Made by a program: the position numbers and the translations under genes. From Paenibacillus sp. L3-i20 (GTDB lineage Bacteria; Bacillota; Bacilli; Paenibacillales; Paenibacillaceae), in assembly GCF_022180385.2 (NCBI RefSeq), contig NZ_BQME02000002.1:1798001-1862000 (forward strand): a DNA stretch of 64,000 bases, given 5' to 3'. The stretch's first letter is position 1, and each line of letters begins with the position of its first letter. Below the pieces are notes generated by a model. That model was not told where the DNA came from and did not search any database. It saw nothing but the letters and a program-made list of their open reading frames with translations. Below, one piece after another: positions 18,997-40,111 of the stretch.

Positions 18997-19000
18997 TTGT

Positions 19001-20231: not shown

Positions 20232-20314
20232 AACAAAACCTCCCATTTAGAAGCTATTAAATCTAGTTTGCTTCTTATGGAAGGTTTTAATCTGGCCTTT
20301 TTGATCTAGCATCT

Positions 20315-20329
20315 CCCGTTAGTTTAACG
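20315..20329. repeat. Cassette-boundary repeat S3
   Basis: CCCGTTAGTTTAACG, identical in sequence and orientation to 19017-19031. The two copies bracket the small membrane gene and the recombinase gene. Confidence 0.78.
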
Positions 20330-21173: not shown

Positions 21174-21206
21174 TGAAACCTCATATCAGGAAAGGGTGGA
21201 GATCAA

Positions 21207-21220
21207 ACTGCCCGTTAGTT
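21207..21220. repeat. Cassette-boundary repeat S4
   Basis: ACTGCCCGTTAGTT, sharing CTGCCCGTTAGTT with the consensus and diverging afterwards. It lies between the Ntn hydrolase gene and the PH-like gene. Confidence 0.6.
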
Positions 21221-21259
21221 GAGAAAAGCCAGTGCGGTAGACCTTTCGGTATTGAGCTA

Positions 21260-23076: not shown

Positions 23077-25962
23077 TTAAGGTCTACTTTGTACTTTAAA
23101 AGGTTCTGTCGCATCCCCTACCCAGACAAGGCTCCCTATAGGAATATCCATTTCTTTTCCTAGCTTTATAGCAACACGACTTTTGTATTGCTCGTTTTGA
23201 TTATCACTGGGTACTTCATCTGTTGTACTAGTAGATGGGACTTGTGAAGTTGTAACTTCCGAATTAATTGGTTTATCTGTTGATTGCGTATCGATCGACG
23301 CATTTGTTCCTTCAGCTTTACAAACTCCTAAAACGGTTAACTCTCTAAATATAACTTTTTCTGCTTCCGAATTTGGAAACTGAATCGACAACTCTTCTGG
23401 TTTAAAATTTTTGCAGATCAATTCACTTTTAAACTGAAACACAAGAGAAGCATGCGCTTTTTCTCCCACTGCAGGTTGCAATTGCTCTACAAATACAATT
23501 GTATTTGACCCGTCAGCAATGTTAGTTTCGGAAGAAGGCGTAGGTGAGGTTGTCGTTACTGGAACATTCACAATCTCTTTATTTGTATTACCATTACCCG
23601 AGAACGACATCACAATACCAGAAATAATCATGATCGTTCCTAGAGCGAAAGTAAATAAAATTAACGTTTTTGAACGATTTTTGCGAAACATCCGTACAAG
23701 CGGCGAAGAAAGTTCTAGTTGTGCTTCTTTGAAAATAGCTTTAAGTCGATCTCCACTCTGATCAAAGTATTCCTTCCAATTGCTTCTTTTTTTCAGCGCT
23801 GTAGGATCATGCTCTACGAAATATTTAATAATTGCTAATTTATATGCAGGAACAAACCCTCTCGACCTCATGAAATGGGTATGTGACTCTGTCCATATGA
23901 AGAAACGATAAACCGTCTCCTTTTCAAAGCTTTTCCCATGGATAAAGTCTATTAAACTATTATAATCTATCACTTCAAGTTCTGGAGCACGAAGAAAGGC
24001 CAGCACAAGCTGTGGAAAGTCGTCTGCATTCAGTCCTGCAGATAAAATGTGACGACCAACGCCCTGCACACGATTAACTTCCTGTGATGTTAATTCATCA
24101 AACAATTCCTCATTAGGCGCCTTTTGTGAAAACCAATTATATAAAGCGCCAAGCATACGGGCTACTGCACTCTGATTAGAATCTTTAAGTTCTTTATTCC
24201 AACGCTTTAATCGCTCGTTATCACTCATAAACGTTGCTTGCCGTAGCGCATCCCTAGTTAACTTCTCCGGCTCAAGTCCCGTTAACATGGACGAATAGAC
24301 GGCGATCTCAAGCTCTTTCACCAAGTCTATAACCTGGTTATCCCCTCGTTCATTACTTTGCTTTGAGCTTGTGTCAAGCGCCTTCAATTGCTCCAATAGT
24401 TGGTTGGATGCTCCAAGTGAGTAACGTTCTTTTGCTAACTTCAAAACTATATTGTCACGTGCAATCGTATAAAACATCTCATACTCATATAGCTTGGGAA
24501 ACGCTTTACCCCATTCCACAATCGATGAAACCATTCCTTTAAAAGAGGTTGCCTTTAGCTTTCCTGTTAAATAAGGGAAGAATAAACGATCTGCAAATCT
24601 ACCTTCATTCACAATTTTACTAAAAAAGGCTTTGCCTAACGTCGTATGACCTTCAATTATTTCAAAGAAAGAGGAGGCAGAATTTTCATCCCCACCTTTA
24701 ATGGCATTGGAGATCGCATATATAAGAAATGCAACAAGCTTGTTTTCAATCAATTTGCCTGCGATTCCATAATAGTCTCTTAATATAAGGACAGAATCCT
24801 GCGATGGGATAGCACTATTCAATAGCTTATCATATTCAAGATCAAAGAAAGACAGGAACAAATCATTCAACTGTACCTTAGTATCAAGTGCACCTGGTGT
24901 GCTCAAATAGTGGAGTGCACTACTAAGTATTGCTATTTGATTGTTAGCAGTTCCTAATTCGTCGCCTTCTATGCAACGATACAAGACACATAATTCATGA
25001 TAGCTAGCTGGAGATTGAGCTTGTTCAGCGCCCATATCTTCAAGCATTAAAACTGCCATTTTACAACATTTCTCTATCTCAACTTTGTTATTTAAATTTG
25101 CCCACATATAATTGAGGTAAGGAAAATCCAGTCCATCCAAATCAACATTCAAAATACGATCATTTGCTAAGTCAAAAATAAACTCCTTCTCTATTTCACG
25201 CTCAACAGAGCGCAGGCTGCTCGACTCCACAAAAGTAACATGTATCCCTTTCCGACTAATCGGTTCTTTTGAATAAGTCATAAATCCTAATAGCTTACGA
25301 TGAGCATGCGGTAAGCAGCTGTATAAGACAGCGAGCAGTTCCTTTGCGCTATTCGAAAGTTCACCAATAGGAACTGGTAATGAAATATATACTTTTTTCT
25401 TGCCGCCAAGGGATGCCATTACCGCATGTAATAATGCTTTAAACTCCCTTTCACCTATTCCTAACTTCGTTAGCAGTTCACTAGACGATACTTCACCTTT
25501 ACTACTTGAAGCTTGAGGAAGACGAGGAAGCTGTTCTATTTCAGTTCCTAACTCTATCGAATAGCTCTCTACAAATGCCGCTGACAGCAAACTCATATAA
25601 TCTAGATCAGCCTTATCATCGTAATTCGCAGGAATAATATAGTGATGAGTAAAAAATGTGCTGCGCAGTCCTGTGAAATCAGCCTCCTGATAAACACTTC
25701 GACCCAGTACAATTTCTCCGTTATCCAGTTGAATAAGATGCAACGCCTCAGGATAAGCATTATTATCCCTTTCACCGCGAGCTGTCAGCTCAGCAGGCGC
25801 ATCATAAACACATAGAGGATGAAGCACCTTCTTCACAAACGAAGAGTCTAACCCACTTGATTTCGCAATCGTGTCATACCCTTCAGTAGAGCGGAATATG
25901 CCGCGCCTCTCACGAGTGTACATCTGTTGCTGAATAGCAGTGCGGGGCGTATAGTCTGTCAC
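23077..25962 (-). CDS. GAP1-type GTPase-associated protein with C-terminal membrane anchor
   Basis: 961 aa; last gene of the seven-gene operon. The N-terminus QQQMYTRERRGIFRSTEGYDTIAKSSGLD matches, as I recall it, the GAP1-N2 domain of GTPase-associated proteins, followed by a long helical middle domain (LLAVLYSCLPHAHRKLLGFMTYS). A single TM helix (about residues 766-788) precedes a Ser/Thr/Pro-rich linker and a small beta-rich tail with paired cysteines. The start is a GTG that shares one base with the GTPase stop codon (TAGTG), indicating tight coupling. It is expected to partner the adjacent GTPase; the biological output is unknown. Confidence 0.82.
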   Translation of the reverse strand: MTDYTPRTAIQQQMYTRERRGIFRSTEGYDTIAKSSGLDSSFVKKVLHPLCVYDAPAELTARGERDNNAYPEALHLIQLDNGEIVLGRSVYQEADFTGLRSTFFTHHYIIPANYDDKADLDYMSLLSAAFVESYSIELGTEIEQLPRLPQASSSKGEVSSSELLTKLGIGEREFKALLHAVMASLGGKKKVYISLPVPIGELSNSAKELLAVLYSCLPHAHRKLLGFMTYSKEPISRKGIHVTFVESSSLRSVEREIEKEFIFDLANDRILNVDLDGLDFPYLNYMWANLNNKVEIEKCCKMAVLMLEDMGAEQAQSPASYHELCVLYRCIEGDELGTANNQIAILSSALHYLSTPGALDTKVQLNDLFLSFFDLEYDKLLNSAIPSQDSVLILRDYYGIAGKLIENKLVAFLIYAISNAIKGGDENSASSFFEIIEGHTTLGKAFFSKIVNEGRFADRLFFPYLTGKLKATSFKGMVSSIVEWGKAFPKLYEYEMFYTIARDNIVLKLAKERYSLGASNQLLEQLKALDTSSKQSNERGDNQVIDLVKELEIAVYSSMLTGLEPEKLTRDALRQATFMSDNERLKRWNKELKDSNQSAVARMLGALYNWFSQKAPNEELFDELTSQEVNRVQGVGRHILSAGLNADDFPQLVLAFLRAPELEVIDYNSLIDFIHGKSFEKETVYRFFIWTESHTHFMRSRGFVPAYKLAIIKYFVEHDPTALKKRSNWKEYFDQSGDRLKAIFKEAQLELSSPLVRMFRKNRSKTLILFTFALGTIMIISGIVMSFSGNGNTNKEIVNVPVTTTSPTPSSETNIADGSNTIVFVEQLQPAVGEKAHASLVFQFKSELICKNFKPEELSIQFPNSEAEKVIFRELTVLGVCKAEGTNASIDTQSTDKPINSEVTTSQVPSTSTTDEVPSDNQNEQYKSRVAIKLGKEMDIPIGSLVWVGDATEPFKVQSRP

Positions 25963-27221
25963 TATTCTCTTCTCCCCTCAATATAGTTCAGCTTGTACAG
26001 CAGCCAAATAAAAGGCTCATCCACTCGAATAGGGCTCACGACTGTCTGCAGCTTCTGATCCACAGGATTACTACCTAATGCAGATACGGCGTAATAGGCT
26101 GTGTCTGTAAAATAAACATCCATCGTCCCCTTAAAGGGGCGGTCTACCTTTTCGATAAAGCGTCGAATTTCACCGTCAATATTTTCAAATTCAGTAAGGT
26201 TAAAATAATTACGATGAACCATATTGTTAAAAATGTTGCTGTTGCTCTTAATGTATTCACCATCTTCATCTTTGAGCGAATGCAGCATATCACTTTTTGT
26301 CAGTACAACAGCCGTTGGAATATCTGTTTTCCCTTTGTCTTGGTGAGCAATAAAGTCGCCAAACATCGTCAATACCACATCGCGTGGCTCATCATACTGC
26401 GACACCCATTCTCCACGTGTATCACCATGCTTAATTCTAATTTTGTCACGAATGGAACGAATTTGCAGCGGATCTACCATAAACAAAATACCAGCTGAAT
26501 TTTTAATATGTTGACCGTGCAGACCAAGATAATCTTGCTCTACCATACCTTCACCCGCTACATCAAAAAATACGAGTGTCAAAGGCGGCGTCTCTTCGTC
26601 CTTAAATACAAATTGGAATATAAACGGTTCTTGCATCTTCTCCTTCTGGGTAGAAGCAAGCAAATCACCGCGCTCAAACAAAGGTTCTTCATAGTTCGTA
26701 CGGAACTTCCGGCTAATCTCAGCATTTAATGGCATACATGCAGCGTTAAAGTGATCTGCCGTTGTATGTTGGAGCGTATGAATGAGTGCAGTCATGTACA
26801 CAGATTTACCGACCTGTGAAGCACCAATAATAGAAATAATGTTGCTTGGCACTTTTCCTGCTGTTATAGGAATTTCATTATGACATTTCGGACATAACCT
26901 TCTGCGAGTAAGCTCCCCATATCGATCACGAAGCCCAGTGAGAACATGACCAGAATAAATATGTTCCTCTGTCGGTACATCTTGCGGGCTAATTACAGCT
27001 TCAATATCGTGTAAGGAATCAAGCCCGAAGCGCTCTCTGTATTTGTTCAGCTCTTCATCTTCGCCTAATGCAAAGTCTTCATCGTCTTCACGAGAATGTG
27101 AAGCACGGAATACAACTTCATCTGGTGCAAATTTACTGAAGCAATATGGACAAACAATATCATAAAATAATGGCTTTGGCTTACTCTCCGGCTTTTTCCT
27201 AAATAGATCCATAAGACCCAT
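25962..27221 (-). CDS. Zinc-ribbon TRAFAC-type GTPase (double-GTPase-like)
   Basis: 419 aa. A split zinc ribbon uses Cys24/Cys27 and Cys110/Cys113 (CPYC, CPKC). Walker A is GASQVGKS at 133-140. Switch II is FFDVAGEGMVEQD, and the guanine-specificity motif is TKSD in VVLTKSDML, so it should bind GTP. This layout fits the DO-GTPase2 class of conflict-type GTPases that co-occur with GAP1 proteins. No TM segment. The gene is separated from the upstream gene by an unusual 130-nt hairpin-repeat spacer and overlaps the downstream GAP1 gene by one base. Confidence 0.9.
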   Translation of the reverse strand: MGLMDLFRKKPESKPKPLFYDIVCPYCFSKFAPDEVVFRASHSREDDEDFALGEDEELNKYRERFGLDSLHDIEAVISPQDVPTEEHIYSGHVLTGLRDRYGELTRRRLCPKCHNEIPITAGKVPSNIISIIGASQVGKSVYMTALIHTLQHTTADHFNAACMPLNAEISRKFRTNYEEPLFERGDLLASTQKEKMQEPFIFQFVFKDEETPPLTLVFFDVAGEGMVEQDYLGLHGQHIKNSAGILFMVDPLQIRSIRDKIRIKHGDTRGEWVSQYDEPRDVVLTMFGDFIAHQDKGKTDIPTAVVLTKSDMLHSLKDEDGEYIKSNSNIFNNMVHRNYFNLTEFENIDGEIRRFIEKVDRPFKGTMDVYFTDTAYYAVSALGSNPVDQKLQTVVSPIRVDEPFIWLLYKLNYIEGRRE

Positions 27222-27242
27222 ATCCCATCACTCCTTCTCCAA

Positions 27243-27347
27243 GGTTTGCGAAGCAAACCTACTTCGTAAGCATTATCTTTGGTTTGCGAAGCAAACCTAC
27301 TTTGTAAGCAGCATCCAAGGTCAGTGCAACTAACCTGCCCTGCTTGC
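27243..27347. repeat. Tandem hairpin repeats in the operon spacer
   Basis: Two near-identical 30-bp units, at 27243-27272 and 27281-27310, differ by one base. Each starts with the hairpin GGTTTGC-GAA-GCAAACC. A third, decayed unit (AGGTCAGTGCAACTAACCT...) follows. They fill the only long gap inside the operon and may set mRNA stability or partial termination ahead of the GTPase gene. Confidence 0.8.
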
Positions 27348-27352
27348 ACGGT

Positions 27353-27988
27353 TTATCTCGAAATTAATTCATACAACTGTCCATGTGTTCGACCATCAGC
27401 TAAAAACAAACGAACATAGTCCGATTTCCCAACCTCAAAAGTAGGCAGTATGTTTCTTCCCGCTGAGAATGAGGCTACAAAAGGATATAAGATGCCATCT
27501 TCTCGGTTTGCTGGATAACTTCCACTTTTTTTCACATAGCACAATACATCATTCCCAAGAGCTACTTCCGTATTTACTTCGATCTGAATACTCTTCTGTG
27601 TACGGAATAATCCGCCCTTTTCCGAGATGGAATAATAGACTTTAGCTCTTCCAGCACTTATTTCGATCGTATTATCTCCCTTTGGCTGTTTAAGCAAATA
27701 TGAACCATCTTGGGACTCAACAAGAGCATACACAGTAAATCGATACAGGCGGGCGCGATCAAGTCGAGTAACGTATCCGTTATTCGCTTTATATTCTGCT
27801 TTTGTGTATAGATTAAAGTCATCGTTATGTTCAATCTCTTCTTCTGAACCGTTCAAAGCGAGCTTGTTTATATAAACTGCGTCGACTCCTCGCGGCCACG
27901 TAAAGCGCAATGTGCAACGATCCTCTTCAAGTGAACGCGAAAGTCCTGTAATAAGGGGTGAATCTTCTTCTGCGATTATAAACTGCAT
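27353..27988 (-). CDS. Beta-rich (fibronectin-III-like) protein of the GTPase operon
   Basis: 211 aa from the ATG at 27988 (MQFIIAEEDS), with AGAGGGG nine bases upstream. An in-frame GTG at 28024 overlaps the VWA stop codon but has no ribosome site. The segment FTWPRGVDAVYINKLALNG...YKANNGYVTRLDRARLYRFTVYALVE looks like a fibronectin-III-like sandwich, and a second strand-rich unit follows. No signal peptide or TM. It probably acts as an adaptor within the complex. Function not known. Confidence 0.72.
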   Translation of the reverse strand: MQFIIAEEDSPLITGLSRSLEEDRCTLRFTWPRGVDAVYINKLALNGSEEEIEHNDDFNLYTKAEYKANNGYVTRLDRARLYRFTVYALVESQDGSYLLKQPKGDNTIEISAGRAKVYYSISEKGGLFRTQKSIQIEVNTEVALGNDVLCYVKKSGSYPANREDGILYPFVASFSAGRNILPTFEVGKSDYVRLFLADGRTHGQLYELISR

Positions 27989-28023
27989 GTTCTCCATCCC
28001 CTCTTTATTGTAAAAACAATTCA

Positions 28024-29301
28024 CTAAAAGCCATGACTGCGTCCCTCTTTGCCACGTCCACCTCTACCACTTGCAACAGGGCTCTCTATCGCTCCACCTT
28101 TATCCCGTCGAGTGTTTTTGCGCTCACCTACTGGAACAACTAAGGTAAACAGGGAAATTACTGCGGCAAGTACAAGTGCAGCGATCAATCGGTACATCCC
28201 ATCTGTAAACGGTACACCCGACAATCCCGCATTCAAAATAAGACCAGAGATCAAACCTCCGACAATCCCGCCAGAGCCAAAGCTAAGTGCTAAGAAACGG
28301 TTATCGAACATTAGCCCTAATGCTATTCCTAAAGTTAATCCGATAATAACAAAAGACAAGACACGCAAAAATTTATATATGGAATGCTCATCTGGTGCAT
28401 TAGCGTTAATTGCATGAAGCATCCGATTATCGATTGTCATATAAATATTTTGGAATGCGTCCGCAAGTCCTTCCGACTTAGAGACATCATAATATTTCCC
28501 GCTAGTAGATTCTGCTATCTCTTGAAGCAAAATAACACCTTGGTCATAGCCCATTTTGAGCCCGATCGTATGAATTGCAATGTTTTGGCTTTGAAACTCA
28601 CTAATTTGCTCCGTAATATTAGATTCACTGAATCCGTCCGACAATAAAATAACCATCGTCCCACGTTCTGCAAATTCCTTCTCTTTTATAACAGCTAAAG
28701 CTTGGTCCAGAGCTGCACTATAGTTCGTTCCACCATCAGATACTTGAATCGTATCAATTACTCCATAGACACTCGATTTCTGTTCTTCTGTACCTACATT
28801 CGCAAATGGCATTAACAATTCCGCTGTATCGGCAAAAGTAACAATTGCTACCCGCTTTTCTTTATCCATTTCGGCTATTAGCCCCTTGGCAGCTTCAAAA
28901 CGATCATTGTTAGGATCTGTTTCAAGCATGCTGCCAGAATTATCGATAACAAGTACGATATCTCTTACCTTCTTCGTATCACCGAAATCAAGACTATAAA
29001 TAAGCTGGAGTACAGCACCTATTACAAACATTAGAACAAGTGTAGCTGGAACTAGCAGCTTCCAAGATATATCGACATATCGTTGTCGCCATGAGTGTCC
29101 ATTTAACTTCGGTGAAACGAGTTCCGCAATTAGACAGGATAGACCAATACTTAAAGCAAGTATGCCGAAATAAAGTCCAACGACAACGTAGCTTGGCCAA
29201 TCCTCTGGCAGCGTAAGCATGACAACCTCGCCAATTGCAAACCCAATTGCTGCACCTAATAAACTAAACAGCAGAAGCAGCATATTTATTTTCCGTTGCA
29301 T
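28024..29301 (-). CDS. Polytopic membrane protein with VWA domain
   Basis: 425 aa. About three TM helices precede a von Willebrand A domain (about residues 118-290). The metal-ion site is intact: DNSGS in VLVIDNSGSMLETD, the Thr in DGGTNYSAAL and the Asp in LLSDGFSE. About four more helices follow, then a Gly/Arg-rich tail. VWA domains bind a partner through a Mg ion, so this protein likely docks other components at the membrane. It lies inside the operon, 53 nt after the gene upstream. Confidence 0.9.
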   Translation of the reverse strand: MQRKINMLLLLFSLLGAAIGFAIGEVVMLTLPEDWPSYVVVGLYFGILALSIGLSCLIAELVSPKLNGHSWRQRYVDISWKLLVPATLVLMFVIGAVLQLIYSLDFGDTKKVRDIVLVIDNSGSMLETDPNNDRFEAAKGLIAEMDKEKRVAIVTFADTAELLMPFANVGTEEQKSSVYGVIDTIQVSDGGTNYSAALDQALAVIKEKEFAERGTMVILLSDGFSESNITEQISEFQSQNIAIHTIGLKMGYDQGVILLQEIAESTSGKYYDVSKSEGLADAFQNIYMTIDNRMLHAINANAPDEHSIYKFLRVLSFVIIGLTLGIALGLMFDNRFLALSFGSGGIVGGLISGLILNAGLSGVPFTDGMYRLIAALVLAAVISLFTLVVPVGERKNTRRDKGGAIESPVASGRGGRGKEGRSHGF

Positions 29302-29354
29302 GTTGACAGCACCCTCTCTCCTTAACTATTGATCTAATACCTAATTTGATTCGT

Positions 29355-31742
29355 TTATCGAAGAATGGAAAGCTCAGATTCGTCAATCGAATGAAATTTA
29401 TGGCCATCATGCAAGTAAGCTACATAGAACACTTTTGCATTTCGGAAATAAATAAGATCTTCCATATGAAAACCGCCCATCAAATGAAGCTTCTCTACCT
29501 CACTGCTGCGCTTTTCATTCAAACATCCGAGCTTATGAATGCGTGACGCTTCATCCATTCCGAACGCATAACGAATAAATTCACTGCTTCGATCTCCGAA
29601 CAAATACTTTTCTTCATAACGATTTTTGTGCATATAATCGAACAGTCGAATATTAATCGTCGCATTGTCCTCTAGCATGCGGTAAAGCTGCTGAAACAGC
29701 TCCTCCTTAGGCAATGCTTTCCGATTATTATAGGACACAGACACATTTGCTCGCTCCAGCAATTCTTCCTCAAACGATAAAGCGAAACGTTCAGTTGTAA
29801 AAATGTCTCTTCGGCAAACGACAATCAATCTCTCAATGAACAGGGATTGTTCCTGCTCCAACAGTTCCGCTACATTCCCTATGTAACGTTCCTCAAACAA
29901 TACAGATGACCCGCGTTTCTCCTCAAGTTCTAGAACAACATCTGACGTTACACGTTCGTAATAATCAAACACATTTTGCCCGATATAGTCATCTCCTAAG
30001 GAAATGCTTTGCTTCGCTGCTGTTTTTAATTGAGCTCTTAGATCATGCAGACGTTCAATACGAACACGGTACCATTGATTCAAATGTTCAAGCTCAGCAG
30101 CAATACGTCGATAAAGAGTAAGTTCCGCTTTCAGTCGCAGCACTTCATATCGCAGTCCGTAGACTCCCTCTAAGAAAGCATTGATGAAGGAGCGTACATT
30201 TCTTTTGTCCATAAAAGGAATCCGTTGAAACTTCAAGTTCTCAACTCGCGTAGCACTTGTTACCTCAAGCTCTTCTTGGGCATGTTCAATAGCTCGGGTA
30301 AGATCTCGAATTTTTTCGCGGACAGCTCCTATTACTTCACCTTTCCCATCACTATCGTCTGTCCACTTGAACAAATGAAACAAGGAAATATTCGTATTTT
30401 CTTTCATGTTCCGAGCAAGTGTAGCCTTGATGTCCTCGGCAACTTTTAATCTTTCAATCAGCCGTTCAGTAGCTTCTACAAAATGTTTGTTGAAGAAGGT
30501 ATCGCAACCATTTCCATATAAGGCGTGCTCTGCTTCTAACAACGTCATACCTCGTAGTTGTTCATAGCTAACTCCACTCGTGATAAGCCCCTTCAAATCT
30601 TCAAGCCGATCTGCTCCAGGAATTAAGCTGTTGCTTCTTGCAGCAAGTGTTACATGATCTACTCCGAAGAAACGAAGCTTCTCCTTCTGGTCAAGTTCTT
30701 GTACAGCCTGCAACCTTACGATGACTTGGTCAAAGAGGTGGTATAACACTGTTAATGCAATGGCATATGCGGGACGCTGTACTCTTGCTAAACCAGCCGA
30801 TACATATCCCATTTTACCGGATTCAGCCTTCAAACTATTTTTAAAAGAAGTGTTGTTATAGCTTTCTCCGCTGAATTGATTGCTGGCATCTTTGCGACTT
30901 CGATTTTTCAATAACATGACTCGGCAGATGATTTCATAATTCTGCTCCATACCATTAAGGGCAGTCATTCCTCTTTCATTGCGATCTGATAACAAATAAA
31001 CGAGATCAAACAGCGCGGATGGTCCATGATTTACTTGTATCGTTAATCCGTCACCAGTCAGCTGAAGAGGTGCGCTGTACGTGAAATCAGGCCGCTGCAC
31101 CCGCTCCAACTCTCGTAAGAAACTAACGCCTAATGCTGCTGCATAACCAAATGAATCGCCTTGTTCTCTCTCTTGAATTAGAGCGAATAAATCCATCTGA
31201 ACCGACTTGAACAATGTGCCAAATATTGATTGTGCTAACAGCGTAATGTCAGGCATCAAAATATTTATTGGATCATCAACACGTGTAATTACTGCTAGAT
31301 GAAGGCGATCAAATGATGCATACATCCGTCCATAATCACCGATTGTATCGTTAATCTGGCGGAAGGTTCGATTAAGCAGTATCAAATGATCTCTACTCGA
31401 AAAAAAAGTACTGCTTAATCGTTCACGCTTTGTCCGTTTATCGACAAGCTCTGATGGAAGACCCGTCAAAGGTATTGTAAATAGATTTGCAGAAGCTTCG
31501 TCCGAATTTGCTGATTCACTTACAGATGCGCCAGTTGATACGTGACAATAAACAACACCCCTGTTATTCGCCCATCTTAGCGCATTGGACTTCATCATAG
31601 GTTCAATTGCTTGCCCAGCCTCATCACCAACAAATAAAAAGACAGTTGGATAATGAATACTGCTCTGGTCATCTTCCGACCCTTTTAATCTTTGTTCAGC
31701 TGCCGAATAATCGGCAGCAAATTGTTCTACCATATCTCTCAT
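29355..31742 (-). CDS. Degenerate tubulin-like paralogue (795 aa)
   Basis: The start may be the ATG at 31742 or, with better ribosome-site spacing, the ATG three codons later. The protein has no clear catalytic motif. Its N-terminus VFLFVGDEAGQAIEPM lines up with ILIIGLGGTGIDALL of the tubulin-like protein next door, and ALFDLVYLLSDRNERGMTAL lines up with PFNLCHLISATNTEGKLL. The GGTGSG phosphate loop is absent. I infer a paralogue that has lost nucleotide binding, possibly the partner in a heteromer. A long helical region rich in Glu/Arg follows. It starts within 3 nt of the preceding stop codon. Confidence 0.62.
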   Translation of the reverse strand: MRDMVEQFAADYSAAEQRLKGSEDDQSSIHYPTVFLFVGDEAGQAIEPMMKSNALRWANNRGVVYCHVSTGASVSESANSDEASANLFTIPLTGLPSELVDKRTKRERLSSTFFSSRDHLILLNRTFRQINDTIGDYGRMYASFDRLHLAVITRVDDPINILMPDITLLAQSIFGTLFKSVQMDLFALIQEREQGDSFGYAAALGVSFLRELERVQRPDFTYSAPLQLTGDGLTIQVNHGPSALFDLVYLLSDRNERGMTALNGMEQNYEIICRVMLLKNRSRKDASNQFSGESYNNTSFKNSLKAESGKMGYVSAGLARVQRPAYAIALTVLYHLFDQVIVRLQAVQELDQKEKLRFFGVDHVTLAARSNSLIPGADRLEDLKGLITSGVSYEQLRGMTLLEAEHALYGNGCDTFFNKHFVEATERLIERLKVAEDIKATLARNMKENTNISLFHLFKWTDDSDGKGEVIGAVREKIRDLTRAIEHAQEELEVTSATRVENLKFQRIPFMDKRNVRSFINAFLEGVYGLRYEVLRLKAELTLYRRIAAELEHLNQWYRVRIERLHDLRAQLKTAAKQSISLGDDYIGQNVFDYYERVTSDVVLELEEKRGSSVLFEERYIGNVAELLEQEQSLFIERLIVVCRRDIFTTERFALSFEEELLERANVSVSYNNRKALPKEELFQQLYRMLEDNATINIRLFDYMHKNRYEEKYLFGDRSSEFIRYAFGMDEASRIHKLGCLNEKRSSEVEKLHLMGGFHMEDLIYFRNAKVFYVAYLHDGHKFHSIDESELSILR

Positions 31743-31744
31743 CC

Positions 31745-34700
31745 TTACTTCAACTTTCTGCGAATATCATGAAGCTTGGCAGACATCCCTTTGTAAAACT
31801 GATACAGTTCCTCACCGTTTGCCAGCTCAGCCCTCTCATATTCCAGACGCTCACGGGCATCAAGGTATATGCCGAATAGATCATCTAGCTTAGTAACAAG
31901 TACCGAAGTATCTTCATTAGCTGTAAGTTCCGTCACCCGGCGGCCAGCTTTACGCAGCAATGTGTTGCGGCTTTTTTCATCTAATGCACGGAAGCTTTCG
32001 AACACATCATATTCAATATAGTTGCCACCCTTCATCAGGTTGGCAAACGGCGACCATGCTTCCTCTTCGGCATCTCGATCATAGACATATAGCGCTCCGC
32101 GCTTACAAATTGTATCTGTATACAAAGCCTCAATAAATTGCTCCAACCACTTCTCTTCACTTTCATGAAGAACTAACAATCCTTCTAGCTCCTTAATGGA
32201 AGCTGCGATTGCATCCATCTTCGCAAGCTCCTCACGAACTTTCCTCAATTGTTGAGGTGATCGGATCAAATTTTCTTGTGCCAGCTCTTCTGAATAACTA
32301 CCGAAAATATCCTTTGTCGACTCAACCTCTAAGCCGCCTGCCAACAATCTCTTCAGTTCTATAACCGCACACTTCACTTCACCCAAGTTCGGCTTTGCGC
32401 TTTCCAATTGCATAGTGAATGACTTTAGCACATCCGACAGTTGGAAAGGTTTAGTAAACCGAATGTTGTATCGATTGCTAAGCGGATTGTCGATACCCTT
32501 CTCGGCAATAATTCCATAGTTCACCGCACTCGCAAACTCCACTCGAATTCTTGCGTTATAGCTCTGCACCCGGGCATTCACATATGTTTCTCCCCATGAC
32601 TTCTCAGGGATTGGCGACGGCAAGAAGGTCCAATTATCCTTGTCGCTCTGAACAAGATGGCGTCCGATGCCTTCTTTGTCCAAAATCGTACGTTCATAGC
32701 TCTCTTCATAAACTTTCAATGGAGTATAAACAAAAAGTGGCACACCGTTTTTCGTATTGAGCCAGAAAATTCGATTGCGAACTTCACTTTCTTTTATCGT
32801 AAAGTGGGACTTGCCAATCGAGCTATTCTGATAGTTACGAATCCCCCGCAGTATGCTAGGCGCCTGTACAGGAACCGATACGAAGCCCCATGAAGGAACA
32901 TGTAAATTACCTGCACTATTGCTAAGATGGAACACAGGAATCGCTTCCTCATCCAGCTTGCTCGCAATATTACGCTCAACAAATTTTTCAATTGATTCAT
33001 CATTGCCATATTTCATAACAAGGAAATCTTCCATCGATTTCGTAATCAAATCTCCGAACTTATCCGTCAAAAATTCTGAGATTGAGCCGACAATATCGAT
33101 TTCTTGCTCCTTGACCCATAGATTGGAATGATCAAGCAATTCCCGGGTAAAGTCACGAATGAGATCCTCACCGTCTTTATTGTCCATCACTCGGCTGATC
33201 ACATTAGATATATCAGGCACACTAACGATATTCCAATAATACGTTTTGTTGCCTTTATGGTCTCCTTGCTCTTCACCACTCGTTAGTATTTCACCGTTTT
33301 TCGCAAAGATCGTATTAAGTACATTCAAAATTTCAGTGTATACGTTATAAATACGGTTATTCTCCGCATTAAGAAGCTCATATAAATCTTCATAAAATTC
33401 GATCATGCGCTCCATCCGCTCAACATCTGCACGGAGCCAATATTCATTAATTTTTGCTTCGATATAATTGTTCTTTTTCTTATCCTTGGATACAAAAGCG
33501 CTCTTCGCATCGCCCATTCTCTCATCTGCTTGATCTCTGGCCGCTTCAATTTCACGTGGAAGTCTTTGCAAACCTTCTTTAAGCGATTCAATATATGAAA
33601 GCAACATCTTTAACAAACAAAAGCCTTTTTCCGTGTACAAAAGTCGTGATACATAAAAAGGACCTTGCTCTGGATGAAGAAAAATCCGACGTATTTGATC
33701 CTTAAACTTCTCAACGCTTTCACCTGGAAATTGTTTCTTCGCTTTAATATATTCCTCACGTGCTCTAGTCAAAAAATTCAGCTCAAGCTCAGTATCCATG
33801 TTGACTGCTTGCATCTTAATGACATTATTGTAGCTCATACGTTCACTATTCTCGAAGCCAGGCAGCGGCTCAGGAACGCGAGCATCAAACGTCTTCATCA
33901 TAGACTCGAGGTCAATCCCAAGTTTGTGGACAAACTTCTCCACATCTTCCTGTGACGGTGCTTTGTGGAACATTCCTTCCATCTTTTGAAACAAGCGATA
34001 TGCCAAATATGTTGTCATCTCTTCAATCGGCAATACTGCTGACGAAGCACCAATGATGTTGTAGTCATAGTTAGCAGGGTACATCTTGTTCATTTGGGCG
34101 ATATTCGTTCTAATGTTGCTAATATAGTCATGTATCGCAAACTCTTCACCGGATTGTTTCTCTTCACTCGATATAAAGTTAGTAATGTTCTCCGCTGTTA
34201 CGTTCATGCAATAATCGTAAGCATTGTCCAATAGCTTGCCTTCTGTATTCGTAGCAGAAATAAGATGACATAGATTAAACGGCGGCAGGGGTGAATTTAC
34301 AGACAAAATGTTGCCATATTGCTGCTTGAACCGTTCTCCTCTTGCATCTACGTTCATCCAATAATCCAATTCTTTTAACGCTGCATATCCATTTTTCTTA
34401 ATATATTCTCTTGTATGATCACTTAAACTGTTGTTCGCAAGGTTGATGTCCGGTGTGAACAAATAGCCTAATGTATTGACTCGATCGATTCCTGCAGCAC
34501 CGTGATCACGTTCAATAATGCCTCTTACAATATAAGAAATATCGAGGAAACAGCCGCTGCCGGTTCCACCTGATAATCCCGTTAGAAGAAACACCATCAG
34601 CTTTTTATTTGTACCAACAGATAACGTCTTCACCTTTTTATCAATGCTTTGCACAACTTGGTTAATCTTAGTGAATAAAAGTAATCTTCCTGCTTGACGG

Positions 34701-35134
34701 ACCCCCGCCGCACCGTTCATACCATCCGTAATACTTAACTCAGGAGAAAGCCAATCCGTTATATATGGTTCCAAAATGCTGCGATTTTGCAACAATCCCC
34801 CTACTTCGGCATTTGATAGCAGTACAAATTCATTAATGGGATCGAGACCGACCCCTTTATATTTTTTGTTGCGATCCTGTTCATTCGTCTCAAAAGCGAG
34901 AAACTCTACATTATCGGGCTTGTCACGCTTTCTTTTGGAAATTGGGTCCTCCGGCAGTTTAAATCTGCGATTTATTTGATATTTCAAACGGAGCAGCGCA
35001 TCGATACCTGTTCCACCTAGCCCAATAATAAGGATTGGATTATCAATCGTATCTACTCTGATCTTTTCACTGACGATACCCCCGCCTAACGATACATCCA
35101 GCTGCTGTATATGCTCTCTAACGATTGGTTTCAT
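31745..35134 (-). CDS. Tubulin/FtsZ-superfamily-like protein (1129 aa)
   Basis: The nucleotide-binding features are clear: an N-terminal GLGGTG (residues 38-43) in ILIIGLGGTGIDALL, and the tubulin signature loop GLSGGTGSG at 186-194. This matches the large bacterial tubulin-like group (Tubulin_2 type), not cell-division FtsZ, which is about 380 aa. The C-terminal 800 residues are helical and unassigned. AGGAGGT lies eight bases before the ATG. It is the second gene of the operon, between the VWA gene and its apparent degenerate paralogue. GTP-dependent assembly at the membrane is inferred. Confidence 0.88.
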   Translation of the reverse strand: MKPIVREHIQQLDVSLGGGIVSEKIRVDTIDNPILIIGLGGTGIDALLRLKYQINRRFKLPEDPISKRKRDKPDNVEFLAFETNEQDRNKKYKGVGLDPINEFVLLSNAEVGGLLQNRSILEPYITDWLSPELSITDGMNGAAGVRQAGRLLLFTKINQVVQSIDKKVKTLSVGTNKKLMVFLLTGLSGGTGSGCFLDISYIVRGIIERDHGAAGIDRVNTLGYLFTPDINLANNSLSDHTREYIKKNGYAALKELDYWMNVDARGERFKQQYGNILSVNSPLPPFNLCHLISATNTEGKLLDNAYDYCMNVTAENITNFISSEEKQSGEEFAIHDYISNIRTNIAQMNKMYPANYDYNIIGASSAVLPIEEMTTYLAYRLFQKMEGMFHKAPSQEDVEKFVHKLGIDLESMMKTFDARVPEPLPGFENSERMSYNNVIKMQAVNMDTELELNFLTRAREEYIKAKKQFPGESVEKFKDQIRRIFLHPEQGPFYVSRLLYTEKGFCLLKMLLSYIESLKEGLQRLPREIEAARDQADERMGDAKSAFVSKDKKKNNYIEAKINEYWLRADVERMERMIEFYEDLYELLNAENNRIYNVYTEILNVLNTIFAKNGEILTSGEEQGDHKGNKTYYWNIVSVPDISNVISRVMDNKDGEDLIRDFTRELLDHSNLWVKEQEIDIVGSISEFLTDKFGDLITKSMEDFLVMKYGNDESIEKFVERNIASKLDEEAIPVFHLSNSAGNLHVPSWGFVSVPVQAPSILRGIRNYQNSSIGKSHFTIKESEVRNRIFWLNTKNGVPLFVYTPLKVYEESYERTILDKEGIGRHLVQSDKDNWTFLPSPIPEKSWGETYVNARVQSYNARIRVEFASAVNYGIIAEKGIDNPLSNRYNIRFTKPFQLSDVLKSFTMQLESAKPNLGEVKCAVIELKRLLAGGLEVESTKDIFGSYSEELAQENLIRSPQQLRKVREELAKMDAIAASIKELEGLLVLHESEEKWLEQFIEALYTDTICKRGALYVYDRDAEEEAWSPFANLMKGGNYIEYDVFESFRALDEKSRNTLLRKAGRRVTELTANEDTSVLVTKLDDLFGIYLDARERLEYERAELANGEELYQFYKGMSAKLHDIRRKLK

Positions 35135-35158
35135 TGCAACTTACCTCCTGGGTTCTAG

Positions 35159-36934
35159 TTATACGAGATATTCGATATAGATCGTTTTGTCTACTTGTGT
35201 AAGTGTAACCGTAATTCGATCACCGCTCTGAAGCTCCAGGTCACGCCCTGCAACTATCGCTCTTCCGAACTTTTCTACCTTACATATGGAGTCATTCACT
35301 AACAGCACGCGATCATTGTTAGCTGGCTTAAAAATAATTTTTTCTGTTTCCTTAAGCTCAGGAGCAAGTTGCAGCAACTGATGCAGCTGAAATTTACCTT
35401 TAAAGTGGTGTAGCTTCTTATATTGGGGCGAAGATTTATCCCCTGTATTTTCATCTCGAATTTCAATAATCAATTGTCCAACGAAACCACGACTTTTCTC
35501 CTTAAGTATCCGCCATAACCAATACCCAGCAGCAAGAACGACAATAGCAACAATTGCTCCGATGACCACAATTAATGTTGGAAACGGCTTATCCTCCGCT
35601 GTTTTGTCAGGCTGGTTAGTCGGCTTAGCTGCTCCAGTCTTCGCAGAAATGTTAAGTGCAGCGCTCTCGCGGAAGAAGCTTTGCTCCTCTGCTCTCACTT
35701 TAATTTCATAATCATTGCTGTTAGCAATTTTGTATTCCCCTTGGAAATAATCGTCCGTCGTCTTCATTTCTATTTGTTCTGTTTTTCCAGTCGTTAAATC
35801 TTTAACGTACATTACAGCCTGCATGTTGCTGTATTGCGATACATCGCTCAGCGGTTTGCCGCCACTCGCCAAAAATGCGTTAATTTCAACCTTGTCACCT
35901 TTGGAGAAAGTTGTTGATTGAAGTGGTGAAAGCTCTAATGTCAAATCATAATTAAATATCAAGTTGACATCGATCTTATCCTTTGCAACACCTTTGACCT
36001 TGAGCGTCCAATCTCCTTCGATTGGCTGCATCAGCTTAATTAAAGAATAGCTCTTCGACTTGGATAACAAAGCATTCTTCGATGGAATAGCAACGGTGTT
36101 GCCACTCGGATCAACGAGCTGCGCATCAACTGGCTTTGCTGACATAATCGAAATATTAGCTTCCAGCACATTGCTGTTAGGAACAGTTATTTTTACGTCT
36201 TGATAAGATCCATTAGCGGTAAACGAGTTGACTGGAACAATATTCAGTTCCAAATGACTAGCAAATATTTCACTTAAAATTTGTGGTAAATCATCTGCTG
36301 AATCCGTTACAAACGATTTACCAGCTGTCTTTTTGGAGAGATCAGCAAGTGCAGCTTTGTTAAGCTTACCGTCAGCGTTAAGACCGATTGTGTATATCGG
36401 AATACCGCTGTCTTTTGCCCCTTTCACCGCTTTATCCATATCTGCATTCGATTCAGCTTCTGTCCGTCCGGACTTCGGATCAAGCGAGTTGTTCCCATCC
36501 GCTAATAGAATAATGATTGGCTCACGATTGGGAGCTGCCCCATCCTCTAATATTTTCACAGCTTCCTTCACACCAACAGAAACGTCCGTATACGAACCTC
36601 TATCTATTTGATCAATAAATGATTTTAAATTTTCTTTATCCTCTGCGGAACGAATTTCTAGCAGCGCTTTTTCACGTTGAATTTGATCGGTATAAGCGAC
36701 GACGCCAACACGATCTCCCTTCTCAGACAACATATCGATAAACATTTTCATAGCTTCATTACCAATCTTGTCACGATCACTGTTATCCATAGAATGACTT
36801 ACATCAAGAACTAGGACAGCATCAATTTTGGATGCTCCTCCAGCTGCTGCTATAGTCGTCACACTGCTGAAACTCATTAAAACAACAAGTGCTAGTATGA
36901 TAGAATAATGTACATATTTTTTAAGTGAAATCAC
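35159..36934 (-). CDS. Secreted/membrane-anchored VWA protein
   Basis: 591 aa, GTG start behind GAGGAGG. A signal peptide (residues 1-31) is followed by a VWA domain with the metal site DVSHS at 44-48 and LLADGNNS further on. Beta-rich domains come next, then one TM helix (about 455-478, TLIVVIGAIVAIVVLAAGYWLW) and a cytoplasmic tail of about 110 residues with a beta-rich FHA-like or ubiquitin-like look (GRAIVAGRDLELQSGDRITVTL). The VWA domain should face outside and the tail inside. It is the first gene of the operon. Confidence 0.88.
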   Translation of the reverse strand: MISLKKYVHYSIILALVVLMSFSSVTTIAAAGGASKIDAVLVLDVSHSMDNSDRDKIGNEAMKMFIDMLSEKGDRVGVVAYTDQIQREKALLEIRSAEDKENLKSFIDQIDRGSYTDVSVGVKEAVKILEDGAAPNREPIIILLADGNNSLDPKSGRTEAESNADMDKAVKGAKDSGIPIYTIGLNADGKLNKAALADLSKKTAGKSFVTDSADDLPQILSEIFASHLELNIVPVNSFTANGSYQDVKITVPNSNVLEANISIMSAKPVDAQLVDPSGNTVAIPSKNALLSKSKSYSLIKLMQPIEGDWTLKVKGVAKDKIDVNLIFNYDLTLELSPLQSTTFSKGDKVEINAFLASGGKPLSDVSQYSNMQAVMYVKDLTTGKTEQIEMKTTDDYFQGEYKIANSNDYEIKVRAEEQSFFRESAALNISAKTGAAKPTNQPDKTAEDKPFPTLIVVIGAIVAIVVLAAGYWLWRILKEKSRGFVGQLIIEIRDENTGDKSSPQYKKLHHFKGKFQLHQLLQLAPELKETEKIIFKPANNDRVLLVNDSICKVEKFGRAIVAGRDLELQSGDRITVTLTQVDKTIYIEYLV

Positions 36935-37084
36935 GATAGTCCTCCTCGGTCATATTGCTAATTGACGTAATTAGTTCAAAAGTCATTGTTAGTCATGCTT
37001 GCCACTATGATGATATACTATCAACAAGTATACTCGATCGAATTCCAGAAATCACTTCTTTTGTCATATTAGGGAGGCACTAAA

Positions 37085-37234
37085 ATGGTTACATATATTG
37101 TTATAGGACTCATCGTTTTTATCGTTGTTATAAAAGCTATACAGTACCGTTCATTAAGGAAACGCGCTCCTTCGGAGGAACAAATAAGCAAGCTTGTATT
37201 GTCCATATTAAAACGCGGGCAGAGTGATCTATAA
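37085..37234 (+). CDS. Single-TM small protein, first of divergent pair
   Basis: 49 aa with GGGAGG before the ATG. One N-terminal TM helix (YIVIGLIVFIVVIKAI) precedes a basic cytoplasmic tail. Its stop codon overlaps the next start by one base (TAATG). It is transcribed away from the VWA/tubulin operon across a 150-bp shared promoter region, so it is probably part of the same system. Confidence 0.72.
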   Translation: MVTYIVIGLIVFIVVIKAIQYRSLRKRAPSEEQISKLVLSILKRGQSDL

Positions 37235-38169
37235 TGATGAAAAAGATAGCCGTAACTTTACAGCCTTATACACCTGCACGTTATCCCTATCAAAAACTTG
37301 AAGTATGCCGAAAGTGTGATCATTTTACCGTGTTAGGTGATACGGTTTGTACACATTGCGGTAAATCTACACTTCAACCAGTCGAGAAGCGAGCCGCTGT
37401 CACCGTACAAAAAAAACTATGGAAAACGAGACTTCTCCTTCTTCTGCTCATTGGAATTGGAATTCCCTTTAGTACTTCTCCTTTAGAGATAGGACTACTC
37501 TTAGCATGCGGCATTGCATTCCTATCACTATTATGGACGTTGCAGGTTAGATCCACCCCTGCACTTAGACGAGTACAGCTACAGAAAATGTTTCAACAAT
37601 ATGCAAATACACTCATTTCTGGCCTAGTGCGAGATCATCAAGCTGCCTTCACAGTATTCCAACAAGGTAACAAACCTTTAACTTATGTGATGTTACGAGA
37701 AATTGGGGCACTTGTGCAAACAGATCAGCTACGCTTGGAACAAATTATGCTCCTGCAAACTTTCCGTCTGCGTAAAGATATGGATTTGATGTTAGAGCCA
37801 CTGTTAATGGAAAAATTCAACGTTGATCTTGTTGCCTATATCGGAGAGCTTGCCAAAATTAGGCGCGATCTGCTAAAAGAAAATACATTCCGTTATGTAC
37901 TTCAATATGAAGCACAAATATTAAAACTACCTGATGGTGAAGCCATCCTAACCAGCGTTGCAGGTGCTGCTGTGCGCAAGAAACGTTATCTCACTTTATA
38001 TCCCTACTTATTAATTCGTTATTCACGCCTGCTTCCAAGGGATCGTTTCCTGCGGTTATATCGAATCATTAAGAGCGATACCCTAGTCCGATCGGGACCA
38101 TTGTACGATGAGGTTATTCGCATTTATGAAGAGAAATACCACCTAGACTCTGATTTCCGTAACAACTAA
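37234..38169 (+). CDS. Zinc-ribbon membrane protein of the divergent pair
   Basis: 311 aa. The N-terminal zinc ribbon is CRKC...CTHCG (VCRKCDHFTVLGDTVCTHCGKSTL). Two adjacent TM helices follow (LLLLLLIGIGIPFSTSPLEIGLLLACGIAFLSLLW), then about 200 helical residues that are not recognised. The combination of a zinc ribbon and membrane helices echoes the zinc-ribbon GTPase of the opposite operon. Translation is coupled to the preceding 49-aa gene. A strong terminator follows at 38277. Confidence 0.75.
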   Translation: MMKKIAVTLQPYTPARYPYQKLEVCRKCDHFTVLGDTVCTHCGKSTLQPVEKRAAVTVQKKLWKTRLLLLLLIGIGIPFSTSPLEIGLLLACGIAFLSLLWTLQVRSTPALRRVQLQKMFQQYANTLISGLVRDHQAAFTVFQQGNKPLTYVMLREIGALVQTDQLRLEQIMLLQTFRLRKDMDLMLEPLLMEKFNVDLVAYIGELAKIRRDLLKENTFRYVLQYEAQILKLPDGEAILTSVAGAAVRKKRYLTLYPYLLIRYSRLLPRDRFLRLYRIIKSDTLVRSGPLYDEVIRIYEEKYHLDSDFRNN

Positions 38170-38374: not shown

Positions 38375-38806
38375 CTACTTTTTCTTAAACAATAATAGAC
38401 CCACGATTAAAACGGTTATACCTACTGCTTTTTGGAACGTAAAAGGAACGATCTCAAGTCCAAACCAACCCGCGGAGTCCCACCATAATGCACAAATGAG
38501 CTGCGAAGCCATTACGATAGATATTGCATAACTGGCTCCTAGTAGCTTCACTCCATTTACGACACAAATGACAACGCCTACCCCAAGCAATCCACTAAAC
38601 CAATACCAAGTTGGCATGGAGTCTAAAGATAAAAAACTTGTCCCTTCAATGAGCATTCCCATAGCAAACGACGCTAACATCCCCATACCTAGCACTAAAG
38701 TCGTTGTCACCTGAGAGCTTACTGCTTCGTTCACTTTGTTATTAAACATCGTTTGAACACTAATCAACGAACCTGCTGCCAAAGCCATCATGATGCCTAC
38801 TATCAT
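38375..38806 (-). CDS. YdcZ/DUF606-family DMT transporter (second copy)
   Basis: 143 aa and about five TM helices (MALAAGSLISVQTMFNNKV; WYWFSGLLGVGVVICVVNGVKLLG; GWFGLEIVPFTFQKAVGITVLIVGLLLF). This is the small DMT/DUF606 half-transporter family, which often occurs as adjacent pairs that may act together. It overlaps the Crp regulator gene by 47 bp. AGGAG lies 11 bases before the ATG. The substrate is unknown. Confidence 0.85.
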   Translation of the reverse strand: MIVGIMMALAAGSLISVQTMFNNKVNEAVSSQVTTTLVLGMGMLASFAMGMLIEGTSFLSLDSMPTWYWFSGLLGVGVVICVVNGVKLLGASYAISIVMASQLICALWWDSAGWFGLEIVPFTFQKAVGITVLIVGLLLFKKK

Positions 38807-39521
38807 AGTTTAGTTCTCTCCTAATTCCTATTTCATAAATATTACGGCCAGCCACATCGGACAAACCTTTCCAATCTCTCACAATAAGCAGTCCTCTACT
38901 CCGTTCCACCAATCCTGTAGAACAAAAGCCTCGCAGAACTCGGTTCAAATGCCGGTAACTCGTGCCGATGAGATTAGCAACATCCTTTAAACTCTCTATG
39001 CTTACGTGTGAATGTGATTCCAACTCTTCTTCAGTTGATACAGAAAGTAAATAACTCGCTAGCCTAACTTCTACGGGATGCATAAGATTGAAACTGAGAG
39101 ACAACGACTTCAGATAAAACTTTTGGGTCACCATATCGAGCAAAAAACGAAGAAACGGCGCTTCCTCTCCATACTGGCTTAGCCAACGCTTATGAAATGC
39201 AACTGTTTCTACTTGCGTAACCGCAGTTACCGTATTAAGATTTTCCCCGCCTCTTACACATTCGATTTCTCCAATGAATCCGAATGGCGTATTAAAGCTT
39301 AACAGCAATGTTTTACCTTCCAATGAGGTTGTATAAACCTTTACTTTCCCTTTCACCAGCATGTATAAGTAATGTGGTTCTTCGCCTTGTAGACAGAGTG
39401 CCTCATTAGGCTCAAAACGGTGTATGATCAAATGTTCTCTTAACGATTCTGGGAATACATTTTCTAGTTTATACTCTTTGATATATTGATTTATTTTCTC
39501 ATTGTCCTTCATTTCTTTCAT
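38760..39521 (-). CDS. Crp/Fnr-family regulator (YeiL-like)
   Basis: 253 aa from the ATG at 39521, behind GGAGGG. The N-terminal cyclic-nucleotide-binding fold (FEPNEALCLQGEEPHYLYMLVKGKVKVY) is followed by a C-terminal winged helix (ESLKDVANLIGTSYRHLNRVLRGFCSTGLVERSRG). It sits between two YdcZ-type transporter genes and overlaps one of them, so it very likely controls the transport pair. The conserved Arg/Glu needed for cAMP binding are not apparent, so another effector or none is possible. Confidence 0.9.
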   Translation of the reverse strand: MKEMKDNEKINQYIKEYKLENVFPESLREHLIIHRFEPNEALCLQGEEPHYLYMLVKGKVKVYTTSLEGKTLLLSFNTPFGFIGEIECVRGGENLNTVTAVTQVETVAFHKRWLSQYGEEAPFLRFLLDMVTQKFYLKSLSLSFNLMHPVEVRLASYLLSVSTEEELESHSHVSIESLKDVANLIGTSYRHLNRVLRGFCSTGLVERSRGLLIVRDWKGLSDVAGRNIYEIGIRRELNYDSRHHDGFGSRFVD

Positions 39522-39557
39522 ATCCGCCAATCCCTCCGAAAGCGGCTATAGCATTCC

Positions 39558-39983
39558 TTATAGTGTTAAACAAAGGATACCAATAACCATTAAGCCTAAA
39601 CCAGTCCATTGCACAGGTTTTATACGTACTTGCGCAGTTCCGAACCAGCCACTTTTCTCTAACATTATAGTTACGACCATTTGGGCAATTAATATAGCCG
39701 AAATCGTCAAAGCAGCACCGTTCATGTGAAATGCCTTAATATTGCTGAACAGAATAAAAGCCGCAAATGCTCCACCAAAGTGATACACTGGCTTCACTTG
39801 ATTGAGATTTCTCCAAGATTGATCGCGAAACATTAACATAATAAGTAGAGCTGCTATAAATCCAGTTCCTTGCGTAAGCGTAGCTGCCTGCCACGTACCA
39901 ATCCTATCACCAATGGCTGCATTAGCAGCTCCTTGCAAAGTCAGGAACACCCCTCCTAGACATGCATAGATAACACCCTTCAT
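39558..39983 (-). CDS. YdcZ/DUF606-family DMT transporter (first copy)
   Basis: 141 aa from the ATG at 39983, eight bases after AAGGGGG. Four to five TM helices; begins MKGVIYACLGGVFLTLQGAANAAIG and ends TGLGLMVIGILCLTL. It belongs to the same family as the 143-aa protein at 38375-38806, with the Crp-like regulator between them. The pair may form one transporter. Confidence 0.85.
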   Translation of the reverse strand: MKGVIYACLGGVFLTLQGAANAAIGDRIGTWQAATLTQGTGFIAALLIMLMFRDQSWRNLNQVKPVYHFGGAFAAFILFSNIKAFHMNGAALTISAILIAQMVVTIMLEKSGWFGTAQVRIKPVQWTGLGLMVIGILCLTL

Positions 39984-40111
39984 TCGTTGTTCCCCCTTGT
40001 CTTTAACGCTCATTCCATTAAACGATAATTACGAGTTGCAGGAAAGGACATATGTCCTCAACTCATTATCAACTAAATTAAGCTATCCGAATCAAAGCTG
40101 GTTCACAAATC

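Follow-up and report, generated by a model that had tools for sequence, protein, structure and literature searches.

Nine genes in two divergent arms

We describe here a block of genes at positions 23077-38169 of a 64,000-nucleotide stretch of Paenibacillus sp. L3-i20 DNA (the window; contig NZ_BQME02000002.1, positions 1,798,001 to 1,862,000); the contig measures 2.4 Mb and the genome 5.3 Mb. Seven genes of the minus strand follow one another from 36934 down to 23077, and encode a single-pass VWA protein, a tubulin-like protein (TubA), a second, degenerate tubulin-like protein (TubB), a multi-transmembrane VWA protein (VWAm), an adaptor, a zinc-ribbon GTPase and a GAP1 protein. On the plus strand, 150 bp off, lie a gene for a 49-residue membrane protein and then one for a 311-residue zinc-ribbon protein. 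Judged from its sequence, the block is the Bacilli tubulin-type GAP1-N2/DO-GTPase module.

A sequence-only reading of the window had proposed a GTPase, GAP1, VWA and tubulin-like operon forming an undescribed envelope machine. What it observed is borne out as a whole: the eight large open reading frames (ORFs) lie where it placed them, and the ORF at 37085-37234 completes the divergent pair (Table 1). The close junctions it pointed to also hold, base 25962 being common to the GTPase and GAP1 genes and the TubB end (31742) lying 2 nt from the TubA end (31745), as does the 150-bp upstream region (36935-37084) common to both arms. The adaptor probably starts at 27988 rather than 28024: in an alignment of 37 rows, conservation of Met13 reaches at least 90%. 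With that start the overlap with the VWAm gene vanishes.

Table 1. Positions in the window, strands and main characteristics of the module's genes and shared upstream region
Feature	Coordinates	Strand	Evidence and remarks
GAP1	23077..25962	-	GAP1-N2 + GAP1-M; one transmembrane helix, 767-785; fast-evolving tail of ~175 residues, predicted outside
Zinc-ribbon DO-GTPase	25962..27221	-	Pfam; Walker A, DxxGE, two CxxC pairs
Adaptor, two tandem FN3-like domains	27353..27988	-	AlphaFold2, Foldseek, VIA-align; ORF reaches 28024
Multi-transmembrane VWA protein (VWAm)	28024..29301	-	Pfam; VWA predicted outside; MIDAS DxSxS
TubB, degenerate Tubulin_2 partner	29355..31742	-	Pfam; GGTGSG absent
TubA, full Tubulin_2 protein	31745..35134	-	Pfam; GGTGSG present
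Single-pass VWA protein, 591 residues	35159..36934	-	N-terminal hydrophobic stretch; MIDAS DxSxS; transmembrane 451-469; conserved tail of ~120 residues
Shared divergent upstream region	36935..37084	.	150 bp; two face-to-face TATACT boxes
Single-transmembrane protein, 49 residues, first of divergent arm	37085..37234	+	ORF; one hydrophobic helix
Zinc-ribbon protein, 311 residues	37234..38169	+	Zinc ribbon, hydrophobic hairpin, helical repeat-like domain; no Pfam family over cut-off

The families guessed from the letters were right, as Pfam gives GAP1-N2 and GAP1-M, a DO-GTPase, VWA twice and Tubulin_2 twice. The GAP1 protein matches GAP1-N2 (PF20013, 3.9e-44) and GAP1-M (PF20014, 6.8e-26), both above cut-off, and the GTPase matches DO-GTPase2 (PF19993, 1.5e-7, above cut-off), with DO-GTPase1 named too. 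NCBIfam offered for the eight large proteins just general VWA models, below their cut-offs. The GTPase gene stands directly upstream of the GAP1 gene in module loci, and its product carries a Walker A motif, a DxxGE motif with the Walker B glutamate and two CxxC pairs, none of which is missing from any of 126 sequences; a TKxD pattern was matched in 111 of them. The two tubulins are a contrasting pair. TubA matches Tubulin_2 at 3e-76 and has the GGTGSG loop, the tubulin signature expected of an active FtsZ/tubulin GTPase, in all 125 sequences, whereas TubB matches only the last part of the profile (1.5e-6) and has the loop in none of 124, a looser pattern being found in one. The two proteins are distantly related by profile comparison (hhalign probability 69, E 4.3e-5). 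In both VWA proteins the DxSxS of the metal-ion-dependent adhesion site (MIDAS) is nearly invariant (124/125 in the single-pass protein, the one miss being on a short contig, and 121/122 in VWAm), and the pattern for the later MIDAS aspartate is found in 109/125 and 102/122, respectively.

What are the adaptor and the divergent zinc-ribbon protein? The adaptor has no Pfam FN3 match by sequence, but its AlphaFold2 model (predicted local distance difference test score, pLDDT, 89.6) has two FN3-like domains. The best Foldseek match is FN3 domains 1-2 of NCAM (E 2.2e-5, TM-score ~0.3). By VIA-align the first domain aligns with Z 11.3 (2.1 A, 93 residues), and two-domain FN3 rows reach, for example, Z 10.5 (5.5 A, 168 residues); through its predicted structure the adaptor thus appears to be an FNIII-repeat component. 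The zinc-ribbon protein is also modelled well (pLDDT 91.8), as a hydrophobic hairpin and a helical-repeat-like domain. Its best matches (Foldseek E 0.036, VIA-align Z 7.7) are at chance level for helical repeats, and we assign it to no family. The structure alignments left out 4 of 40 (A3), 4 of 36 (A4) and 2 of 34 (A5) of the chosen sequences. Profiles of GAP1, the zinc-ribbon protein, the adaptor and TubA found no credible relative among PDB sequences; a multicystatin match (9.3e-6) in that search was judged spurious, as no stretch of it passed alone. An FHA-like identity for the tail of the single-pass VWA protein was likewise dropped, having no support from Pfam (25 members) or from the PDB profile search.

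Membrane helices are predicted in GAP1, in both VWA proteins and in both proteins of the divergent pair. The single-pass VWA protein had been taken for a secreted one. It does not appear to be freely secreted, since its N-terminal hydrophobic stretch is followed by a second one and then by the conserved tail, predicted on the cytosolic side. Hydropathy and the positive-inside rule suggest that both VWA domains face outward, so that the two proteins would not be oppositely anchored, as the sequence-only reading had it.

Conservation, selection and surroundings

Do the genes of the block occur independently of each other in related genomes, the outcome that the sequence-only reading named as telling against it? 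Among 398 Bacilli genomes, GAP1-N2, the zinc-ribbon family and strong Tubulin_2 matches occur in one and the same set of 61, and six further genomes have weak Tubulin_2 matches without GAP1-N2. Of 51 genomes in the genus, 27 have GAP1-N2, 27 have Tubulin_2 and 26 have both; one genome (G015) has only a different GAP1-N2 and no Tubulin_2 match, and another (G024) only a weak Tubulin_2 match. The eight large genes stand in the window's order in 25 of the 26 genus loci fetched, the remaining one being a contig with a distant GTPase alone, and in 18 of the 20 loci that represent further genera and families, where the two exceptions (L081, L088) are cut by contig or stretch ends. In a set of 80 loci the order is the same in all 79 that are long enough; a 6.2 kb contig (L174) is too short, and it and the two cut loci are outside the complete-locus counts. 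We counted as present a zinc-ribbon protein and VWAm in pieces (L094), a short VWAm (L050) and, in L110, L114 and L118, a GAP1 found by tblastn rather than as a closed ORF. As a rule the module is single-copy per genome. In G015 (L055, 1-7134), a distant DO-GTPase-like ORF (25% identical) is followed by an 876-residue ORF where the weaker GAP1-N2 match lies.

Additional genes inside the block are few. Gap ORFs of at least 90 residues occur in 8 of the 79 complete loci and in 4 of 43 in a second set, and only three exceed 150 residues (in L110, L114 and L080), with no Pfam family over cut-off. Within the loci, therefore, the pattern of a constant core with effectors differing among close relatives is not seen, given the same order in 79 of 79 and the few gap ORFs. 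One of the three is a same-strand 250-residue ORF between the adaptor and GTPase genes (L110, 18223-18975). Separately, in one of the cut loci (L088; 654-4261, 12588-14009) the single-pass VWA gene is duplicated in tandem, and an inserted pyridine-nucleotide-disulphide oxidoreductase gene lies inside the operon.

Across 299 genomes of the phylum, full-length members of the zinc-ribbon family turned up in 5, which all belong to the same taxonomic family as the window, and short-stretch matches in three others; two genomes elsewhere had a clear GAP1-N2 and one a weak one, all without the zinc-ribbon family. In one genus (g27) of family f23, a second family with the module, GAP1-N2 is present in 23 of 26 genomes; four loci of f23 have 40-55% G+C, for which reason its identity with the Bacillus cereus group was rejected.

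The divergent zinc-ribbon gene is part of the module and accompanies the core wherever checked in Bacilli, because it is found in the same 61 of 398 genomes and in one gene order in 79 of 79 loci. The small transmembrane protein has BLAST matches in 23 of 25 intact genus loci and in 78 of the 80 loci. A third divergent gene is present in 33 of the 80, mostly of 578-677 residues with one of 183, and has one predicted transmembrane helix in 31 of the 33. Of seven such proteins scanned from other loci, one, encoded at L093 (15573-17417), is a single-transmembrane protein with a C-terminal bacterial SH3 domain.

How are the two arms expressed? Two TATACT boxes, putative promoters, lie face to face in the shared region, on the minus strand at 37032-37027 and on the plus strand at 37014-37019, and are kept with variable spacing in three clades of the genus; the two facing promoters may be mutually exclusive. 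A consensus scan recovers the plus-strand site and not the minus-strand one, and gives 25 promoter-like sites, fewer than in shuffles (39). A known regulon was considered and rejected, as no clear regulator box was evident by eye and the scan fell below the shuffles.

All nine genes are under purifying selection. The median ratios of nonsynonymous to synonymous substitution (dN/dS), from up to 15 close pairs and leaving out pairs with undefined dS or dS of at least 2.5, are lowest in the GTPase (0.014) and TubA (0.016). The VWA proteins have 0.06 and 0.069, TubB 0.073, the zinc-ribbon protein 0.087, the adaptor 0.092 and the small protein 0.095 (11 pairs), while GAP1 has the highest, 0.114. 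The inner tail of the single-pass VWA protein has a ratio of 0.027. The ratio for rpoB, about 0.01-0.03 in most of the pairs listed, is of the same order, but rpoB has both lower dS and lower dN, so the similar ratio does not make TubA as slow as rpoB.

TubA follows taxonomy, apart from two divergent genomes (G016 and G020): in its 45-row tree, 8 changes, the fewest possible, account for 9 taxonomic groups. An rpoB tree was built for 49 genus genomes. Presence requires 7 changes on it, whereas shuffling gave 16.5 and none of 500 shuffles came as low, some clades keeping the module throughout and others being without it. G015 was scored absent on that tree and omitted from one of two change counts, both of which gave 7; G022 and G044, with no rpoB match, are outside the tree, and the frameshifted rpoB of G012 was kept as DNA. 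No TubA match was found in 50,697 phage records, nor a close one in 72,556 plasmid records, where the single distant match has 26% identity over 28% of the protein.

The neighbours of the module are syntenic on both sides in a sister species (G042), whose site is without two blocks of the window. In one (16520-21634), a tyrosine recombinase (19389-20246) is accompanied by a metallo-beta-lactamase-fold protein; the other (38375-40013) contains two DMT_YdcZ-type exporters and a Crp-like regulator. Shared neighbours occur inside some subclades, L035, L036 and L052 being an example, and mostly not across subclades. At 47072-50769 come a GerA-type spore germination gene and, after it, two genes in synteny with the sister species; from the germination gene the host is probably a spore former. 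A defence-island reading of the flanks was set aside. Among 10 flanking proteins three had PADLOC matches at 1e-3, namely an XRE-type regulator that matched 16 families, mostly of control proteins, a metallo-beta-lactamase-fold protein with a partial match to LmuA (5.8e-7), and one with a weak match to CARF (8.8e-4).

Relation to described systems

The sequence-only reading had linked the operon to computational work on conflict-type NTPase systems, rightly so; its word "undescribed" is not supported for the seven-gene core, since Kaur et al. (2020; PMC7159879) describe the Firmicutes layout. Its interpretation thus stands as to families and the conflict-NTPase link, finds no support as to the novelty of the core, and is at odds with the predicted topology as to the opposite anchoring of the VWA proteins. 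Kaur et al. find a tubulin theme in ~52% of GAP1-N2 neighbourhoods, in Firmicutes and Actinobacteria only. The Firmicutes versions have two tubulin genes, two vWA genes (one product multi-transmembrane with the vWA outward) and an extended GAP1, as well as a C-terminal coiled coil on the tubulins, a vWA-YtkA fusion and a highly polar C-terminal extension of GAP1. The window's module shares with them a DO-GTPase with an N-terminal zinc ribbon upstream of a GAP1 (N2 + M), two tubulins, an FNIII component, two vWA proteins of which one is multi-transmembrane with a vWA domain outward (a side that is predicted here), and a C-terminal extension of GAP1. There are also differences. The paper stresses variable effectors, whereas the window's module has a nearly fixed set; the published GTPase usually has two zinc ribbons, whereas only two CxxC knuckles are matched here; and the YtkA domain has no sequence match here, a search of the VWA protein by sequence alone giving no Pfam match at E up to 1.

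Other systems offer looser comparisons. FtsZl1 (Tubulin_2) operons have vWA and diverged GTPase genes as neighbours, and a membrane-remodelling role has been proposed for them (Makarova and Koonin 2010, PMC2875224). The likeness includes the predicted membrane association; the window's module differs by its constant second tubulin, which has no GTP loop. In BtubA/BtubB and alpha/beta tubulin, too, two tubulin-related proteins are encoded as a pair (see also PMC9871819); TubB here is degenerate and only distantly related to TubA, and nothing points to a regular heterodimer. A phage shock protein paper (PMC11237479) mentions a DO-GTPase once.

What does the present analysis add? The divergent arm (the zinc-ribbon, small transmembrane and third genes) goes unmentioned in the main text of Kaur et al. 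(2020; PMC7159879), as far as that text was available. The analysis adds the divergent zinc-ribbon and small transmembrane genes as members of the module, the third gene as a frequent one, and the loss of GGTGSG in TubB. It further adds the FN3-like model of the adaptor, the purifying selection on all nine genes and the finding that the module is kept as one nearly fixed unit, not as a patchwork defence system.

What the module may do

Our preferred reading, on which we are evenly divided, is that the module is an envelope-spanning, GTPase-controlled tubulin scaffold for envelope sensing or maintenance. The outward VWA domains and the GAP1 tail would bind a wall or surface ligand, and the single-pass VWA protein would pass this on, through its conserved tail inside the cell, to GAP1 and the GTPase. 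GAP1 might hold the GTPase at the membrane, and the GTPase might permit TubA to polymerise, with TubB, which has no usual GTP-binding loop, as a cap, spacer or nucleator. Tethering of the polymer to the membrane would fall to the FN3 adaptor and the zinc-ribbon protein. Nearly fixed membership, a single copy as a rule, purifying selection and absence from mobile-element collections are unusual for a fast-changing defence system. It is the combination of these four properties that leads us to favour an envelope scaffold. On the same side we count the co-occurrence in 61 genomes, the TubA tree, the synteny with the sister species and the predicted transmembrane helix of the third divergent protein, with its one case of an SH3 domain.

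Several considerations weigh against this scaffold, and some of them speak for a conflict system acting against invaders, in which GAP1 and FN3 sense, the GTPase sets a threshold and tubulin polymerisation is the effector (Kaur et al. 2020, PMC7159879). We consider that alternative possible, if rather doubtful. It has on its side the family assignment and the published interpretation, in which GAP1-N2 systems are strongly associated with a multicellular habit and read as conflict systems. Of the 49 genus genomes with rpoB, 24 are without the module, so that about half of the genus has it, by clades; this absence, with at least 7 gains or losses, makes it dispensable. Evolution is fastest in the outer GAP1 tail, with a dN/dS of 0.22 beyond the membrane against 0.087 before the transmembrane helix (10 pairs, one undefined). 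The TubA of two genomes (G016 and G020) forms a divergent lineage apart from their own genus, with long branches and an unsure placement, which suggests a block transfer or an old second lineage. Absolute dN between G000 and G042 is 0.004 for rpoB and 0.043 for TubA, so the core is strongly, not extremely, constrained. To these one may add that the topology and the polymerisation are predictions, and that no experiments on the module were found in the open-licence literature, among the matches listed. Against a conflict system stand the lack of any PADLOC match at 1e-3 for the eight large module proteins and of a close copy on plasmids or phages, the rarity of additional genes inside the block, purifying selection on all genes tested (the highest GAP1-tail ratio being 0.53), and the adjacent recombinase block, which is absent from the sister species that retains the module. 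One might reply that all of this is compatible with a defence system that evolves slowly.

Might the module instead remodel membranes on FtsZ-like polymers, in vesicle formation, septation, sporulation or surface spreading, much as Makarova and Koonin (2010; PMC2875224) proposed for FtsZl1? We think this unlikely. The vWA and diverged GTPase neighbours of FtsZl1 genes, the full Tubulin_2 protein TubA and the germination gene of a probable spore former all fit such a machine. But about half of the genus is without the module, which therefore is not generally required for division or sporulation, and no division gene was found among the flanking window proteins scanned.

The envelope scaffold can also be taken a step further, to an integrin-like linkage. 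The MIDAS of the outward, I-domain-like VWA domains would grip the wall or neighbouring cells, coupled through the GTPase and GAP1 and the FN3 adaptor to a two-component tubulin polymer in the cytosol with a GTP-dead partner. This is a long shot in our judgement; if true, force or state would be carried across the membrane both ways.

Whichever function applies, a tubulin-based machine with its own GTPase and VWA domains predicted to face outward is strongly constrained yet dispensable in these bacteria. The near-fixed boundary of nine genes, the constant divergent arm and the conserved, apparently GTP-dead second tubulin make up a concrete parts list, and with it a route to deciding between defence and envelope maintenance.

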